Virus record (IMG/VR): IMGVR_UViG_3300046532_003212
Span: 1 to 21,902 of that record
From: a virus
DNA length: 21,902 bases
Reading direction: 5' to 3' (one strand)
The notes under the pieces are model-generated. The model did not search any database and was not told the origin of the DNA. It saw nothing but the letters and a program-made list of their open reading frames with translations. The translations under genes were made by a program, and so were the position numbers. Positions 4,560-10,826 of this stretch are shown in pieces. How positions within the stretch are numbered: the stretch's first letter is position 1; every line of letters begins with the position of its first letter.

Positions 4560-5102
4560 ATGAGTAATATAATAGTTTTTGACACAGAAACAACTGGATT
4601 ATTAAAACCTGAAATAAATAGTCTTAAAGCTCAACCTGAAATTACAGAAATTCATTGTACTAAACTTGATCCTTTATTAAATATAATTGATGAGTTTGAT
4701 ATGCTAATTAAACCAAATTTGCCAATTCCAGAAGAACTGGAGCGGAAGATAGGCATTACTAATCAAATGGTTAAAGATTCTCCAAGTTTTATTGACATTT
4801 ATAAACAGCTATCTCATTTCTTTATGGACTGTGATACTATGGTAGCTCATAATATTGGATTTGATAGATCAATGTTAGCGAATGAGTTATCTAGGATTGA
4901 AAAAGTTCTTCATTTTCCTTGGCCAATTAATCATATTTGTACTGTTGAAAAATCAATGTACATAGAGCAACGTAGAATTACACTTACTAAGCTCCACGAA
5001 CATGCCACTGGCACTCCATTTGAAGGGGCTCACAGAGCAGCAGTTGATGTAGCAGCTTTAGTAACCTGTTTTAAGTGGTTAGTATCAGAAGGTAAGATAT
5101 GA
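4560..5102 (+). CDS. DnaQ-like 3'-5' exonuclease (free-standing proofreader)
   Basis: The 180-aa protein has all motifs of the DEDDh exonuclease family: ExoI FDTETTG with Asp8 and Glu10, ExoII AHNIGFD with Asp102, and ExoIII HRAAVDV with His158 and Asp163. A family-typical GITNQMV element is at about residues 65-71. Length and order match the epsilon subunit (DnaQ) core without extra domains. It is translationally coupled (ATGA overlap at 5099-5102) to the polymerase gene, so it very likely supplies 3'-5' proofreading to a polymerase that, like bacterial PolIII-alpha of the DnaE class, has no exonuclease domain of its own. The ribosome binding site is weak (AGAG region about 4556 and upstream). 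Confidence 0.92.
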   Translation: MSNIIVFDTETTGLLKPEINSLKAQPEITEIHCTKLDPLLNIIDEFDMLIKPNLPIPEELERKIGITNQMVKDSPSFIDIYKQLSHFFMDCDTMVAHNIGFDRSMLANELSRIEKVLHFPWPINHICTVEKSMYIEQRRITLTKLHEHATGTPFEGAHRAAVDVAALVTCFKWLVSEGKI

Positions 5103-7792
5103 TAAATATAGCATTAAAGACTGAGTATTCTTTTAGACAGTGTTTTATGCCTATTAGAGATTTACATAAATATGTATTAAATGGTTATTTAGGTGTAGCA
5201 GATTATGATAATACATTCGCTCATGTGCCTCTTTCTATTGAAGCAGAAAAATATGGGTTTACTCCAATATATGGTGTTAGACTCCGCGTGTCAGCCCCTG
5301 AGAACGCCCGTACAGCGACTTCTCAAGAGTATAACGTCTTTATAGCCAAAACGAATAAAGGGCTTACAGAGCTTTACAAGCTCGTCTCAAAGGCATATAG
5401 TCAGTTCTATTATTTCCCTAGATTATTTTGGCAAGATATTGAGAATCTTCACCCAGACATATATATTCTTGGGTCAATGTATGAGAACTTTTTCCCTACT
5501 GCTGATGAAAGAACTGAGTATCAGCTAATAGCTGGAGCTAGAAAGTTTGGTGATGGATATTCTTACAATTTTAATCAGAAAGCTGATGATATGAGAATTA
5601 TTCCTGAAGGCAATATTCACTTAGAAATTGCTAAAAAATGTACTGCTACTATTAGTAAAGCACCTATGCTAAAGTTCCCTGGCCGTATGGATCTATATGC
5701 AAAATGTGAGATTGGTGCTAAAAAGCTTGGAGTTGATTTAAGTGATACTGTCTATTCTGAGAGACTAGAATACGAACTGACTCTTATTCATGAAAAAAAG
5801 TTTCAGGACTACTTCAAAGTAGTATCTGATATTATTACCAAAGCTAAGGCTAAGATGTTAGTTGGCCCTGGCAGGGGAAGTTCTGGTGGTTCACTCTTAT
5901 GCTATTTACTTGGTATAACTGGCATTGATCCAATTAAATATGGACTTCTTTTTGAGAGGTTTATTGACACAAATCGGTTTGACTTTCCAGACATTGACAC
6001 TGACTATCCTGATGTACATAGAAAACAAGTTTTAAAAGATATTGCTAAAATCTATGGTGATGATTGTGTTAAATCAATTGGAACTGTATTAACTCTTAAA
6101 GCCAAAAGCGCACTTAATGAAGTAGCAATGGCTCTCAATATTCCAGCAGCTGATATTGAAGAATTGAAAGGCTCAATTATAGAAAGGTCAGGAGGTGATG
6201 CTAGAGCTGCTTTCTGTGTAGCAGATACATTTACTGATTTAGAAATAGGTAAAAAGTTTATTGAGAAATATCCAAGAATGAGAACTGCTGGCAATATTGA
6301 AGGACATGCTACTACCTTTGGAACTCATGCAGCAGGGGTCATAGTTTCAAACTCTCCGCTGACTGAATTCTGCGGTGTAAACTCTCGTGAAAATACTTTA
6401 ATGATATCAGGCATTGATGCTGAAGCTATAAATCTGCTAAAAATAGATTGTCTAGGCTTGCGCACTCTTTCTATACTTATGGATGTTGCAAAGTTAAGTG
6501 GTTTTAAATATAGTGATTATTATACTCTTGACTATAAAGATCAAGCTGTATTTGATCTACTAACTGCTAAAAGGTATTCAGGCATATTTCAGTTTGATGG
6601 ACAAGCTTTAGGAATGGTTAGTGCTCAAATGGGTGTTCAGAACTTTGATGACATGATAGCTATTACAGCATTGGGTAGGCCTGGTGCTCTTAACTCTGGT
6701 GGTACAGCTAGATACATTAAACGTAGGACAGGAATTGAACAACCAATATATTTTGGTGATCTTCATAAAGAAGTAACAGAGCCTACTTATGGTGTAGTAG
6801 TATTTCAGGAACAGACAATGACAATCTTGAGAAGAATAGGAAGTATGTCTTGGAAAGATGTTAATATACTTCGCAAAGCTATGTCTAAATCATATGGAGA
6901 TGAGTTCTTTTCTAAGTATAAAGCTGACTTCATAGATGGAGCTCAAGGAAATGGATACACAGCAATCGAAGCGGAAAAAGTCTGGGAAGCCGTGGCCTCT
7001 ATGGGATCATACGGTTTTAACAAATCTCACGCAGTAGCATATGCTATGATTTCCTACTGGACTGCATGGGCTAAGGCTCATTATCCATTAGAGTTTGCTG
7101 CTGCTAATCTTAATCATGCAAAAGATGATTCTTCCGCTGTGAAGCTGCTCAGAGATATACATCTTAATGATGGAATACAATATACTCCATTTGATCCAGA
7201 TGAATCAGAATTAGGATGGACTATTCATAATGGAAAGTTATTAGGTGGTATTCTTAATTTGCCTGGTATTGGGCCTAAAAAAGCTCAAACTATATTAAAT
7301 GCCAGAAAGGGAAAAGCCAAACTAACTCCTGGTCTAATTAAAAAAATGATGAATCCAGAAACAATCTTTGATATATTATTCCCAACTAAACATTACTGGG
7401 GCCAGCTTTATTCTGACCCTAAAAGTTATGGTCTTCATAGATCACCTAGCATGATAGCTGATGTTGTAGAGCCTGGTGATTATATAATTATAGGCTGTGT
7501 ATTTGATAGAGATTTACGAAGCAGAAATGATACTCAGTCAGTAATAAAAAGAGGAGGCCAAGTCTTAGATGATCAGATCTATTATCTTAACTTGTATCTT
7601 GAAGATGATACAGATATTATTAAATGTACTATTCCCCCATTTAAGTTTGAGGAACTTGATGGTCAAAATCTTGCTGAAAATATAACAATAGGTAAAACAT
7701 GGTTTTTAGTTTCTGGTAAGATTCAGGGAAGCTGGAGAAATTTAACTATAGATGGTATAATTAACTTAAATGAAAGATTTGGAGTAAAGTAA
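5099..7792 (+). CDS. dnaE: DNA polymerase III alpha subunit-like replicase (DnaE type)
   Basis: The 897-aa C-family DNA polymerase is shorter than the roughly 1160 residues of the E. coli subunit. The palm is intact: GPGRGSSGGS (256-265), PDIDTDY with catalytic Asp298 and Asp300, and KIDCLGLRTL with the third Asp450. Other family blocks are YGVVVFQEQ (564-572), SYGFNKSHAVAYA (637-649) and the helix-hairpin-helix NLPGIGPKKA (720-729). The N-terminal PHP-like region begins TEYS (8-11) but lacks the HxH metal motif, so it is probably inactive and proofreading falls to the coupled DnaQ-like protein. The C-terminal tail (about 790-897) may hold a small OB-like domain. It is the genome's probable main replicase; whether it uses the host sliding clamp cannot be read here. 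Bases 5281-5320 are unusually GC-rich for this gene. Confidence 0.95.
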   Translation: MINIALKTEYSFRQCFMPIRDLHKYVLNGYLGVADYDNTFAHVPLSIEAEKYGFTPIYGVRLRVSAPENARTATSQEYNVFIAKTNKGLTELYKLVSKAYSQFYYFPRLFWQDIENLHPDIYILGSMYENFFPTADERTEYQLIAGARKFGDGYSYNFNQKADDMRIIPEGNIHLEIAKKCTATISKAPMLKFPGRMDLYAKCEIGAKKLGVDLSDTVYSERLEYELTLIHEKKFQDYFKVVSDIITKAKAKMLVGPGRGSSGGSLLCYLLGITGIDPIKYGLLFERFIDTNRFDFPDIDTDYPDVHRKQVLKDIAKIYGDDCVKSIGTVLTLKAKSALNEVAMALNIPAADIEELKGSIIERSGGDARAAFCVADTFTDLEIGKKFIEKYPRMRTAGNIEGHATTFGTHAAGVIVSNSPLTEFCGVNSRENTLMISGIDAEAINLLKIDCLGLRTLSILMDVAKLSGFKYSDYYTLDYKDQAVFDLLTAKRYSGIFQFDGQALGMVSAQMGVQNFDDMIAITALGRPGALNSGGTARYIKRRTGIEQPIYFGDLHKEVTEPTYGVVVFQEQTMTILRRIGSMSWKDVNILRKAMSKSYGDEFFSKYKADFIDGAQGNGYTAIEAEKVWEAVASMGSYGFNKSHAVAYAMISYWTAWAKAHYPLEFAAANLNHAKDDSSAVKLLRDIHLNDGIQYTPFDPDESELGWTIHNGKLLGGILNLPGIGPKKAQTILNARKGKAKLTPGLIKKMMNPETIFDILFPTKHYWGQLYSDPKSYGLHRSPSMIADVVEPGDYIIIGCVFDRDLRSRNDTQSVIKRGGQVLDDQIYYLNLYLEDDTDIIKCTIPPFKFEELDGQNLAENITIGKTWFLVSGKIQGSWRNLTIDGIINLNERFGVK

Positions 7793-7793
7793 A

Positions 7794-8372
7794 ATGTTAA
7801 TGGAGACACTAACTGTGACAAGAAAAGTTGCTATTGTTAAAAGATATAGTATGGCACATCTTAATAGGCCAGAAAGCGTATTAGAGCACACAGGAGGAGT
7901 ATGTTTAATTTCTATGTTAATTGGATTAGAATGCAATAAAGGTGATTTTAATATTGTAGATATGGGCAGTCTTCTTATGAAAGCAACAGTTCATGATTTA
8001 GAAGAATCAGAAATTGGAGATATTGCTAATCCTGTTAAATATGATAATGAAGATATTAATGATGCAATTTACATTGTTAGCAGTAAGGCAATGCAAAAGA
8101 TTTCTTCTGATCTTAATCACCCTATTTTACACGAATTATGGGAAACTGCAAAAGATGAATCAATAGAGGGAAGGATAGTCAAACTAGCGGATGTGTTATC
8201 TGTTTTAGCAAAAATATATGAAGAGTCAAAATTATATTCAAATACATCATTTAAACATTATGGATATAATACTTTATCATTTTTCTTAGATCAAAACAAA
8301 ATAGAAACTAATGAAGTATTATTAAATGTAATACAAGAAGCAATTAATATAAATGAGGAAATATTATTATGA
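7794..8372 (+). CDS. HD-domain deoxynucleotide phosphohydrolase (YfbR/DatZ-like)
   Basis: The 192-aa protein carries the full HD metal/catalytic set in YfbR spacing: His32 (EHT), His67-Asp68 with Glu71 (VHDLEE), and Asp133 (KLAD). The stretch GDIANPVKYDNEDI (75-88) closely parallels the GDLPTPVKYFN region of E. coli YfbR, a 5'-deoxynucleotidase acting on dNMPs, and Arg17 sits where YfbR has its substrate-contacting Arg18. The phage relatives called DatZ hydrolyse dATP in Z-genome phages, so substrate specificity is open. Start: ATG 7794 follows GGAG at 7781-7784 with nine-base spacing, one base after the polymerase stop. It is translationally coupled to the next gene (ATGA). It probably reshapes the dNTP pool for the polymerase just upstream. 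Confidence 0.85.
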   Translation: MLMETLTVTRKVAIVKRYSMAHLNRPESVLEHTGGVCLISMLIGLECNKGDFNIVDMGSLLMKATVHDLEESEIGDIANPVKYDNEDINDAIYIVSSKAMQKISSDLNHPILHELWETAKDESIEGRIVKLADVLSVLAKIYEESKLYSNTSFKHYGYNTLSFFLDQNKIETNEVLLNVIQEAININEEILL

Positions 8373-9508
8373 AAACTTATGATCCATATATAAAATGTTT
8401 ATCATCAATAGATGATCGCATTGCCGCTTGGAATACAAGCCGCCCAAATTTTCAGCCAGGTGATCTTTCTTTTGAAGAGATAGAGCGCATGGATTTAAGT
8501 CTCAACTCAATGAAAGTATACACCCTAGAAATTCGTTCATCAGTTCTTTTCCGCGATCTAATCCTTTCACTTAGGCCAATTCAGTGCTGGGCTCAATCAA
8601 CTAGGTCAGCTCCGTTGGATAGAGAAACACTTAGAATCTCATCTGAGTTTGCTCATATGAAATCTGATGATAGAAAAATTGATGAAATGATTAATAGGTT
8701 TGAAGAAGGTGAGCCCAGGGATCAAGTAAGAGGACTGCTGACTACTTCAGTTAGCACTGTATATACACTTACAATAGATCATAGAGTATTAATGGCATTT
8801 TGTAAAAGCCTATTGTTGCTTAATAAAGGTTTATTTGAATTATATGGTGCTATGCTTTTAGATTCTATTGATGGATTTGATGCATTTAATAAAAGTACTG
8901 TTCATCCTATTCACCCTTTTGTTACAATTACTAATGAAGAACGTGGAGAATATAGAACTGAAGAAGTAGGAAGTATGATCTTTGGGTTTTATAGTATGAA
9001 GTGTGCAATGGCTGCGCAATTTCTTCGTCAGCATTATAGCAAAATAAAAATTGGATATTGGGATATGATTCCTAATTTCTTTGAATCAAGTATGAGTCAG
9101 TCAGACAAAGTAGATGTTGCATTTTACATTGATAAAGCATCTTATGAACGTCTTATGAGTATGAGATCTCATTGGGCTCTTGACTGGTCTGCAGATATGT
9201 GGGGTGGGCTAATTGGAGATTTTGTAAAAAATATGAGCACCGAAGAATTTTGGAATTTCTTGCCAAATGGTGGTGGTAAACGTGACCCTTATTGGGCTGA
9301 CGTTTATAATAGGGTGCTCAGAAAAGACCCAGGCCTACCTTGCCCTATAATGTGTGAATGGCCAGAAATGATTGAATTAAAAGAAAAAGAAGTTGGATAC
9401 AGTTTAGTAATTCAAAAATATTATGACTGTGTTAAAGAAGGGTTTATTAAAGACAACCCTAATAATGAGCATCGTAAACTTTATATTTCACTAGGAGAAG
9501 AATCATGA
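8369..9508 (+). CDS. divergent ThyX-like (flavin-dependent thymidylate synthase-related) protein
   Basis: The 379-aa protein has partial but ordered resemblance to ThyX. LILSLRPIQCWAQSTRSA (64-81) aligns with the RHR-x7-S signature so that Arg69, Ser77 and Arg79 are kept, while the first Arg and the His are replaced. TSVSTVYTLTIDHRVLMAF (126-144) matches the ThyX strand-helix ending N-x-R-x-L-x-x-F, with Asp137 in place of Asn. Later segments (AAQFLRQHYSKIKIGYW, then SHWALDWSADMWGGL) weakly recall the same two motifs. It is longer than the usual 220-260 residues. Neighbours are an HD phosphohydrolase and a deoxyribosyltransferase, overlapping by four bases on each side, so it probably acts on a pyrimidine deoxynucleotide. 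It may catalyse a variant reaction rather than canonical dUMP methylation. The gene is secure; the family call is moderate. Confidence 0.5.
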   Translation: MKTYDPYIKCLSSIDDRIAAWNTSRPNFQPGDLSFEEIERMDLSLNSMKVYTLEIRSSVLFRDLILSLRPIQCWAQSTRSAPLDRETLRISSEFAHMKSDDRKIDEMINRFEEGEPRDQVRGLLTTSVSTVYTLTIDHRVLMAFCKSLLLLNKGLFELYGAMLLDSIDGFDAFNKSTVHPIHPFVTITNEERGEYRTEEVGSMIFGFYSMKCAMAAQFLRQHYSKIKIGYWDMIPNFFESSMSQSDKVDVAFYIDKASYERLMSMRSHWALDWSADMWGGLIGDFVKNMSTEEFWNFLPNGGGKRDPYWADVYNRVLRKDPGLPCPIMCEWPEMIELKEKEVGYSLVIQKYYDCVKEGFIKDNPNNEHRKLYISLGEES

Positions 9509-9927
9509 TTTATATAGCAAGCCCGTTTTTTAATGAAAAACAAGTTGATTTTGTAGAAACAATAGAAAAATCTTTAAATGCAGCAAGGATTGCATATTAC
9601 TCTCCTCGGGGTGAAGGCATTCTTTTGAATCAAACTGAAGAAGAAAGGCAAAAAAATAAAAAAAATATATATGGTATTAATATTAATATGATTTCTGCTT
9701 GTGATAAAGTTTTAGCAGTAATTGATAATAGGGATATTGGGACTATTTGGGAAATGGGATATGCAACTGGTAAAAAAATACCAGTTATAACTATATCAAA
9801 TTCTTCTTATGGGCTTAATGTAATGTTAGCTGAATCTGTACAAGCTCATACAGTTAACATAGAAGATGCTATAAAAGCAATAAAAAATGATCGTTTTCGC
9901 GGTGAGTTATTAGAGGGTGTATATTAA
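9505..9927 (+). CDS. nucleoside 2-deoxyribosyltransferase-like protein
   Basis: The 140-aa protein begins IYIASPFF, the characteristic first strand of nucleoside 2-deoxyribosyltransferases, and contains the catalytic block D74-x2-D77-x-G79-T80-x2-E83-x-G85-x-A87 (DIGTIWEMGYA), with Glu83 the expected nucleophile. A family-typical strand (KKIPVITIS) follows. These cytosolic enzymes swap bases on 2'-deoxyribose or, in relatives such as Rcl and MilB, hydrolyse deoxynucleoside monophosphates. The length is at the short end of the family but looks complete. It overlaps the ThyX-like gene (ATGA) and the ligase gene (TAATG), so these products are made together. It may salvage bases or clear a particular nucleotide, depending on the partner enzymes. 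Confidence 0.85.
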   Translation: MIYIASPFFNEKQVDFVETIEKSLNAARIAYYSPRGEGILLNQTEEERQKNKKNIYGININMISACDKVLAVIDNRDIGTIWEMGYATGKKIPVITISNSSYGLNVMLAESVQAHTVNIEDAIKAIKNDRFRGELLEGVY

Positions 9928-10826
9928 TGTTTAAACCAATGTTAGCTAAAAATATAGCAATCCAAGATATTCAACTTCCTGTATTTGTCAGCACAAAACT
10001 AGAGGGTGTTCGTGGCGAGTTTACACCTGATGGTTTAAAAACTAGACCAATGAAAAAATTCAATAATAGAAATTTAGAATTATTTTTTGGTGAAGTTTCT
10101 AATTATGTTAGAAAATATAACATATATATAGAAGGTGAATTTTATAAACATGGATTAGAGTTTAATGAGATAAGCTCAATTTGCCGAAGGGCGGAACACC
10201 CTGATACTGATACATTGGAGTTTCATATATTTGATATATATATGCCAGAATTTGCAAACGCATCTTTTGCTATAAGACTTGAAATGATGCAAACTTTAGT
10301 AGAACAAATAAATCATAAATCTGTTAAAGTTTGTTATCAAAGTTTAATTTATGAATTTGATACAATCCAAAATATGTATGAAATAGCAATTGATTCAAAC
10401 TATGAAGGATTGTGTTTTAAATCTCCGCGTGAAAGCTATAAACATGGTAGATCTACACTAGATCAACAGTTTACCAGAATAAAACAAGATAACACTTATG
10501 ATGGTATTGTATTAGACATTGTTGAAAGAATGGAAAACTTAGTTGAATCTAAGCCTAATGAATTAGGTATGATGTCTAAAACTCAAGATAAAGATTTAAA
10601 AGCTCCAACTGGTTTAGCTGCAGTTGCGGTAACTAGCTGCGAAGATTTTCCTGAACCAGTTAGAGTTGTTCTATCTAAGAACCTTAGTGATAATGATAGA
10701 GAAGAAATTTGGGCTAATCGTGAAGACTATATTGGTAAGAATCTCAGATTTTACGGAATACCAGTATTAGGAATGAATCAGCCTAGATGCCCAAGATTTG
10801 ATACTTGGAGAACAGACTTAGACTAG
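9927..10826 (+). CDS. ATP-dependent DNA ligase
   Basis: The 299-aa nucleotidyltransferase shows the ligase motifs in order: motif I KLEGVR (24-29, AMP-accepting Lys24, with Glu where Asp is usual in KxDGxR), motif III YIEGEFY (67-73), motif IV YEGLCFK (159-165) and motif V FTRIKQ (182-187). About 100 residues follow, enough for a small OB domain that closes over DNA. Size is in the range of minimal phage ligases, without extra DNA-binding domains. It would seal Okazaki fragments and recombination nicks. It starts within the stop of the deoxyribosyltransferase gene (TAATG at 9925-9929) and is the last + strand gene before the convergent junction. Confidence 0.9.
   Translation: MFKPMLAKNIAIQDIQLPVFVSTKLEGVRGEFTPDGLKTRPMKKFNNRNLELFFGEVSNYVRKYNIYIEGEFYKHGLEFNEISSICRRAEHPDTDTLEFHIFDIYMPEFANASFAIRLEMMQTLVEQINHKSVKVCYQSLIYEFDTIQNMYEIAIDSNYEGLCFKSPRESYKHGRSTLDQQFTRIKQDNTYDGIVLDIVERMENLVESKPNELGMMSKTQDKDLKAPTGLAAVAVTSCEDFPEPVRVVLSKNLSDNDREEIWANREDYIGKNLRFYGIPVLGMNQPRCPRFDTWRTDLD

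Follow-up and report, generated by a model that had tools for sequence, protein, structure and literature searches.

What does a ThyX-like protein with an apparently degraded signature motif do in a phage, encoded between two enzymes of nucleotide breakdown? The window, the whole 21.9-kb virus contig that was analysed, carries phage replication genes on the + strand and virion genes on the − strand. The open reading frame of the ThyX-like protein starts with ATG and lies in a translationally coupled run of four genes, in which neighbors overlap by 1 to 4 bases per pair (Table 1). The stop codon of the HD gene overlaps the ThyX-like start and the ThyX-like stop overlaps the start of the gene for the nucleoside 2-deoxyribosyltransferase-like (NDT-like) protein, both times as ATGA. 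A promoter or terminator specific to the module was sought, and the matches are no more numerous than in shuffled DNA. The window also encodes a polymerase of the DNA polymerase III alpha type (5099-7792) and, separately, an exonuclease (4560-5102); 21-22 of 35 loci have such a pair beside the module. Judged by eye, the window ligase lacks the N-terminal WGR-like stretch of the ATP-dependent ligases in relatives L009, L010, L012 and L013. A second metagenome contig (L007:1-9283) is near-identical to the window, with few amino-acid differences.

Table 1. Features of the module in the window; residues are numbered in the ThyX-like protein
Feature	Position	Strand	Evidence or remark
YfbR-like HD-domain 5'-deoxynucleotidase (predicted), 192 aa	7794..8372	+	Pfam and PDB matches, kept motif
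Two-domain ThyX-like protein, 379 aa	8369..9508	+	Profile, HHalign, AF2 and Foldseek evidence
Repeat A, residues 1-170, complete ThyX-like domain	8369..8878	+	HHalign, AF2
SLRPIQCWAQSTR, residues 67-79; R69 = R80, S77 = S88, R79 = R90 (T. maritima)	8567..8605	+	W74, A75 invariant
IDHRVLMAF, residues 136-144; R139 = T. maritima ThyX R165	8774..8800	+	R in 61/61
Repeat B, about residues 194-300, abridged second ThyX-like domain	8948..9268	+	HHalign, AF2
QFLRQHYS, residues 217-224; Q75/R78/H79 equivalents	9017..9040	+	RHR in most relatives
R266 = T. maritima ThyX R174	9164..9166	+	R in 60/60
C-terminal tail, residues 301-379, not ThyX	9269..9505	+	D311, R315, P326 conserved
NDT-like protein, 140 aa	9505..9927	+	Pfam and PDB matches, kept residues
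DNA ligase	9927-10826	+	Last gene in the coupled run HD, ThyX-like, NDT-like, ligase

By sequence and predicted structure the protein is a member of the ThyX superfamily, and a chance match is excluded. Pfam Thy1 (PF02511) matches it with E 0.013 and 15.8 bits, under the curated cut-off of 24.8 bits, which is passed by the relatives L013 (28.7) and gp130 of phage SP-15 (26.4). A tblastn search with the window protein finds seven phage records, SP-15 gp130 included, at 27-31% identity and near full length. A profile of 11 relatives compared with the whole PDB matches ThyX only (best E 3e-5). In HHalign, residues 2-170 are colinear with ThyX over 168 columns (E 2.4e-11), with a comparable score in none of 100 column shuffles; the ThyX side of this alignment consists of about 80 cellular sequences plus phage ones. 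The AlphaFold2 (AF2) model, built from a 31-sequence alignment, has a pLDDT of 91.2 and a pTM of 0.86, while the first model, from 7 sequences, reached a pLDDT of 56 and fold claims from it are limited to its ThyX matches. Foldseek against the PDB gives ThyX only among the best 50 matches listed (best E 2e-6, TM 0.58-0.65 by target), and the best match among viral models is SP-15 gp130, aligned at full length (408 columns, TM 0.94, rmsd 2.0). ThyA and ThyX have unrelated folds, and it is ThyX, not the fold of a ThyA-type dUMP hydroxymethylase, that the sequence and structure matches return. A match to resolvase HTH_7 (E 0.014), seen in one of 11 members, was dismissed as chance. Relatives with the family pattern were sought in bacterial genome contigs and none was found there. 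The ThyX assignment of the initial annotation is thus borne out, no unrelated fold having emerged from AF2 or Foldseek, and so is its remark that the protein is longer than usual, the ThyX sequences used in the comparison having about 205-278 aa.

The added length is mostly the second, abridged ThyX-like repeat and a family-specific tail. The tandem arrangement is well supported. In the AF2 model an order of strand, helix, strand and then again strand, helix occurs twice, in residues 49-151 and 203-266. Repeat A has strand 49-58, helix 59-66, strand 72-75 and, further on, strand 128-137 and helix 138-151; repeat B has strand 203-211, helix 212-219, strand 224-228, helix 229-239, strand 247-255 and helix 256-266. 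HHalign aligns repeat B colinearly with ThyX at a score above all 200 column shuffles, in a test made with two references, the window and then the marine relative L135, although the sequence similarity is weak (E 0.002-0.007). Compared directly with HHalign, the N- and C-terminal halves show no significant similarity (E about 0.3). Duplication is claimed because each half matches ThyX and because of the predicted secondary structure; since the halves do not match each other, the duplication, if real, is old. The window protein shares its fold and most catalytic-site equivalents with T. maritima ThyX (TM0449). A ThyX, however, is a homotetramer of single domains of about 220 aa, in which one signature holds RHR together with S88/R90 and the folate site has H53 and Y91, whereas the window protein does not have RHR-x7-S in a single stretch: its equivalents are divided over the two fused repeats, and H53 and Y91 are lost. 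ThyX active sites are formed by more than one subunit, and the fusion would bring such a site inside one chain. The thymidylate synthase of Microcystis phage LMM01 (BFVD A0A7D4, 491 aa) gives a structural alignment of 431 columns (E 2e-6) and, as far as models tell, may be a further two-repeat ThyX.

Read together, the two repeats hold a nearly complete set of catalytic-site equivalents. Repeat A retains those of T. maritima R80, S88, R90, R147 and R165, and repeat B those of Q75, R78-H79 and R174. In the alignment of repeat B, R220-Q221-H222 lie over R78-H79-R80 and R266 over R174; the pair is R220-[H/Q]221 across the family, and a literal RHR is present in YerA41, phiXF1 and most marine relatives. 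Conservation was scored in 61 sequences, of which 33 are less than 90% and 19 less than 60% identical. Where aligned, R69, W74, A75, R79 and R139 of repeat A and R220 and R266 of repeat B are invariant or have one miss, while S/T77 and R/K121 vary conservatively. The position of the folate-contacting His53 is Asp in 59/59 sequences, and that of Tyr91 is V, S, T, N or I. In ThyX, R78 touches N1/O2 and S88 touches O4 of FAD (PMC11940539), and R174 activates dUMP (PMC8316439). Free formaldehyde is usable by ThyX via a flavin carbinolamine, and S88A, R90A and Y91A slow the use of this intermediate (PMC8316439). FAD- and dUMP-related residues are thus retained across both repeats and the folate-related H53 and Y91 are not, a pattern that speaks for a functional flavin enzyme whose carbon donor has changed. 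The initial annotation placed R69, S77 and R79 of SLRPIQCWAQSTR and the IDHRVLMAF motif correctly, but took the Arg and His of the signature as lost. This pair is found in repeat B, as is the equivalent of R174, and the view of the repeat A motif as a degraded signature was dropped after repeat B was found. Among the roles it had offered, the one to prefer is a changed carbon donor, given the invariant Asp at H53, the loss of Y91 and a relative whose phage bears a five-carbon side chain on uracil.

The HD protein matches the Pfam YfbR-like family (E 6.6e-23) and YfbR in the PDB (2paq, E 2e-6). Its motif is intact, with R17, H32, H67-D68, E71, D76 and D133 in 57/57 relatives, and it is predicted to convert dNMP to deoxynucleoside and Pi. 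The NDT-like protein matches PF05014 (E 1.9e-17) and the N-deoxyribosyltransferase 6evs (E 6e-8); Y3, D77, E83 and N105 are kept in 56-57 of 57 relatives (D77 and E83 each in 56/57), and the C-terminal Asn-x-Met motif, N105 and M107, in 57/57. Asp and Asn at two 5'-site positions of NDT and DNPH1 proteins mark the use of nucleosides, not nucleotides. We take D77 and N105 to be these two positions, forming a nucleoside-type pocket, which therefore fits downstream of a 5'-nucleotidase. Acting in turn, the HD and NDT-like proteins would convert dNMP to free base and 2-deoxyribose if the latter hydrolyses; as a rule NDTs transfer rather than hydrolyse. The 2'-deoxynucleoside 5'-phosphate N-hydrolase DNPH1/Rcl belongs to the NDT superfamily too and releases 2-deoxyribose 5-phosphate (PMC10483697), but it acts on nucleotides, whereas in the window NDT the 5'-site positions are taken by Asp77 and Asn105. 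DatZ of the Z (2-aminoadenine) phages is an HD-type enzyme. In those phages, NDT-family and HD-type enzymes (DmtZ/DutZ, DatZ) accompany a base-modification enzyme, as here (PMC12884076). Unlike the window module, they serve a purine (A to Z) replacement, and DmtZ acts on the nucleotide dAMP while the residues of the window NDT are read as nucleoside-type.

Both partner genes accompany the ThyX-like gene closely. When whole records were searched, the NDT-like gene was present in 11/11 records carrying the ThyX-like gene and the YfbR-like HD gene in 10/11, Vibrio phage Va2 being the sole exception; the NDT-like gene is also in the genomes of YerA41, GN1 and phiXF1. A scan seeded only with the ThyX-like proteins of YerA41 and phiXF1 gave 48 new contigs, some of them near-duplicates. 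In all 48, NDT lies immediately downstream or no more than 330 bases away and HD is adjacent, in the order ThyX-NDT-HD (36) or HD-ThyX-NDT (12); phage GXN1 has a third order, NDT-HD-ThyX, and the HD genes of SP-15 and Carin-5 lie far from the ThyX-like gene. By one tblastn method, relatives of the NDT and HD proteins occur in 29 and 37 of 50,697 phage records, respectively, and the phages found with the ThyX-like gene are in these lists in nine of nine and eight of nine cases. An SDR gene was considered as a general partner and rejected: among the first set of loci it adjoins the gene in SP-15 and is nearby in Carin-5 only, and none was found in the window. Where other Vibrio phages have HD, Va2 encodes a P-loop protein (L004:9225-9986; AAA_18 E 2.5e-4), by its sequence possibly a kinase. 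A further small conserved protein, nucleotide pyrophosphohydrolase-like by eye, is encoded near the module in 18/35 loci (e.g. L124:12025-12630).

The relative with the best-described DNA is SP-15. Its gp130 (KT624200, 'thymidylate synthetase') is a full-length homologue with 29.5% identity (E 2e-48), published without homologues and proposed to be a hydroxymethyluridylate synthase (PMC5977210). As in the window, an NDT gene is close by (gp127) and a YfbR-like HD gene is in the genome, though elsewhere; unlike in the window, the SDR gene gp129 is directly upstream and the NDT is longer. SP-15 also encodes a normal ThyX, gp9. More than half of its thymine is replaced by 5-(4',5'-dihydroxypentyl)uracil (DHPU) (PMC5977210), which, going by titles in the reference list of that paper, carries ribose label and is synthesised as the nucleoside triphosphate. 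YerA41 gp081 ('hypothetical protein') and phiXF1_88 were assigned to the family by profile (E 3e-34 and 5e-25), the former being about 18% identical to the window protein, and both genomes have NDT and HD genes like the window. YerA41 gp081 is probably the g127 'thymidylate synthetase' of the 2020 annotation. Thymidine in YerA41 carries a substitution of ~1 kDa, apparently an oligosaccharide (PMC9023294). Glycosyltransferases encoded downstream of the module in GXN1 and Vibrio phages (L002:19197-21170; L006:14137-16272) fit sugar decoration of a hydroxylated side chain. Listeria phage LIS04, classed in the genus of SP-15, has no gp130-type gene; near its NDT gene it has a more canonical ThyX (L035:11502-12617; Thy1 47 bits), with HD elsewhere in the genome, and it may make a different base.

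We tentatively propose, with a confidence somewhat short of even, that the protein is an FAD-dependent enzyme alkylating C5 of dUMP with an aldehyde derived from a sugar, the likeliest being 2-deoxyribose set free by the HD and NDT-like enzymes. From the observed ThyX homology, residue conservation and gene linkage we infer the fused active site, dUMP as acceptor, the use of flavin, the 2-deoxyribose donor and the sequence of steps. The 5-substituted dUMP would be made before replication, in place of dTMP, by the two fused repeats sharing catalytic residues between them. The aldehyde would be a sugar and not folate-borne formaldehyde, its likeliest source being the operon itself: the YfbR-like enzyme would turn dNMPs into deoxynucleosides, and the NDT-like enzyme would free 2-deoxyribose, whose C1 aldehyde is joined to dUMP. 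Reduced flavin would activate the aldehyde, as in ThyX with free formaldehyde, C5 of dUMP would attack it, and reduction of the adduct by the flavin would then leave an alkyl group. The outcome would be a polyhydroxypentyl-uracil; SP-15 would arrive at its 4',5'-dihydroxypentyl side chain by losing the hydroxyl on C3, a step in which the SDR gp129 may take part. Among the five carbons of the aldehyde 2-deoxyribose, C1, C2, C4 and C5 already agree with DHPU and only the hydroxyl on C3 has to be removed; with the chemical context, this makes it the simplest donor we can suggest. Against it, the product would be 3,4,5-trihydroxypentyl unless the 3-OH is removed, and no SDR gene was found in the window. 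The preference of NDTs for transfer, the distant HD genes of SP-15 and Carin-5, the failure to detect one in Va2 and the abridged, weakly similar repeat B also count against the scheme. The full claim, that a fused tandem ThyX joins C5 of dUMP to C1 of 2-deoxyribose supplied by a dedicated nucleotidase and deoxyribosyltransferase, is more doubtful still, although quite conceivable.

Other readings account for parts of this evidence. The protein could be a dUMP hydroxymethylase or a ThyX-type one-carbon enzyme using folate, with HD and NDT only removing dTMP and thymidine so that the modified base replaces thymine. The published proposal for gp130 (PMC5977210) is of this kind, and the clearing of competing nucleotides by HD- and NDT-type enzymes in Z-DNA phages (PMC12884076) is a direct precedent for such a drain. 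The loss of the H53 and Y91 equivalents in all family members speaks against it, as do the absence of well-known hmdU phages from the 29 NDT records and the ribose-labelled five-carbon chain of the SP-15 base, the label again being known from reference titles in PMC5977210. We consider this reading unlikely, if worth keeping in view. It is distinctly improbable that dUMP is alkylated with another sugar or carbonyl donor, such as ribose 5-phosphate or one made by an SDR, while HD and NDT deplete thymidine nucleotides. The ribose label is compatible with any pentose donor and an SDR gene accompanies the gene in SP-15 and Carin-5, but the invariant partner is NDT, not SDR.

A diverged but ordinary thymidylate synthase supplying phage dTMP would agree with the ThyX fold and with the frequency of ThyX genes in phages. 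It is very unlikely in view of the two-domain architecture, the lost folate residues, the strict linkage to nucleotide-degrading enzymes, the additional normal ThyX of SP-15 and the occurrence of the family in hypermodified-thymine phages. The non-catalytic role suggested by the initial annotation is scarcely credible: the repeat A motif does look degraded by itself, but with both repeats read the residues equivalent to the catalytic site hardly vary over 61 sequences, and 48/48 contigs have the gene together with those for two nucleotide enzymes. The family is a new two-domain ThyX subfamily, probably with a changed donor, that has near-invariant partners and is tied to known hypermodified-thymine phages.

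How SP-15, the only phage from which DHPU is known, synthesises this base has been a standing question since the base was described in 1972-73. Its gp130 can now be placed among about 60 relatives, with its architecture described, its residues mapped and two nearly invariant partner genes recognised, so the three-enzyme hypothesis is now concrete and there is a sequence signature for finding more hypermodified-thymine phages. A sugar donor would extend what the ThyX fold does chemically from methylation to C5-alkylation. The proposed scheme, if true, would be a sugar-dependent, folate-independent pathway of pyrimidine C5-alkylation that accounts for the ribose-derived side chain of SP-15, and it would predict a pentyl-type hypermodified thymine in about 60 more phages and phage contigs.
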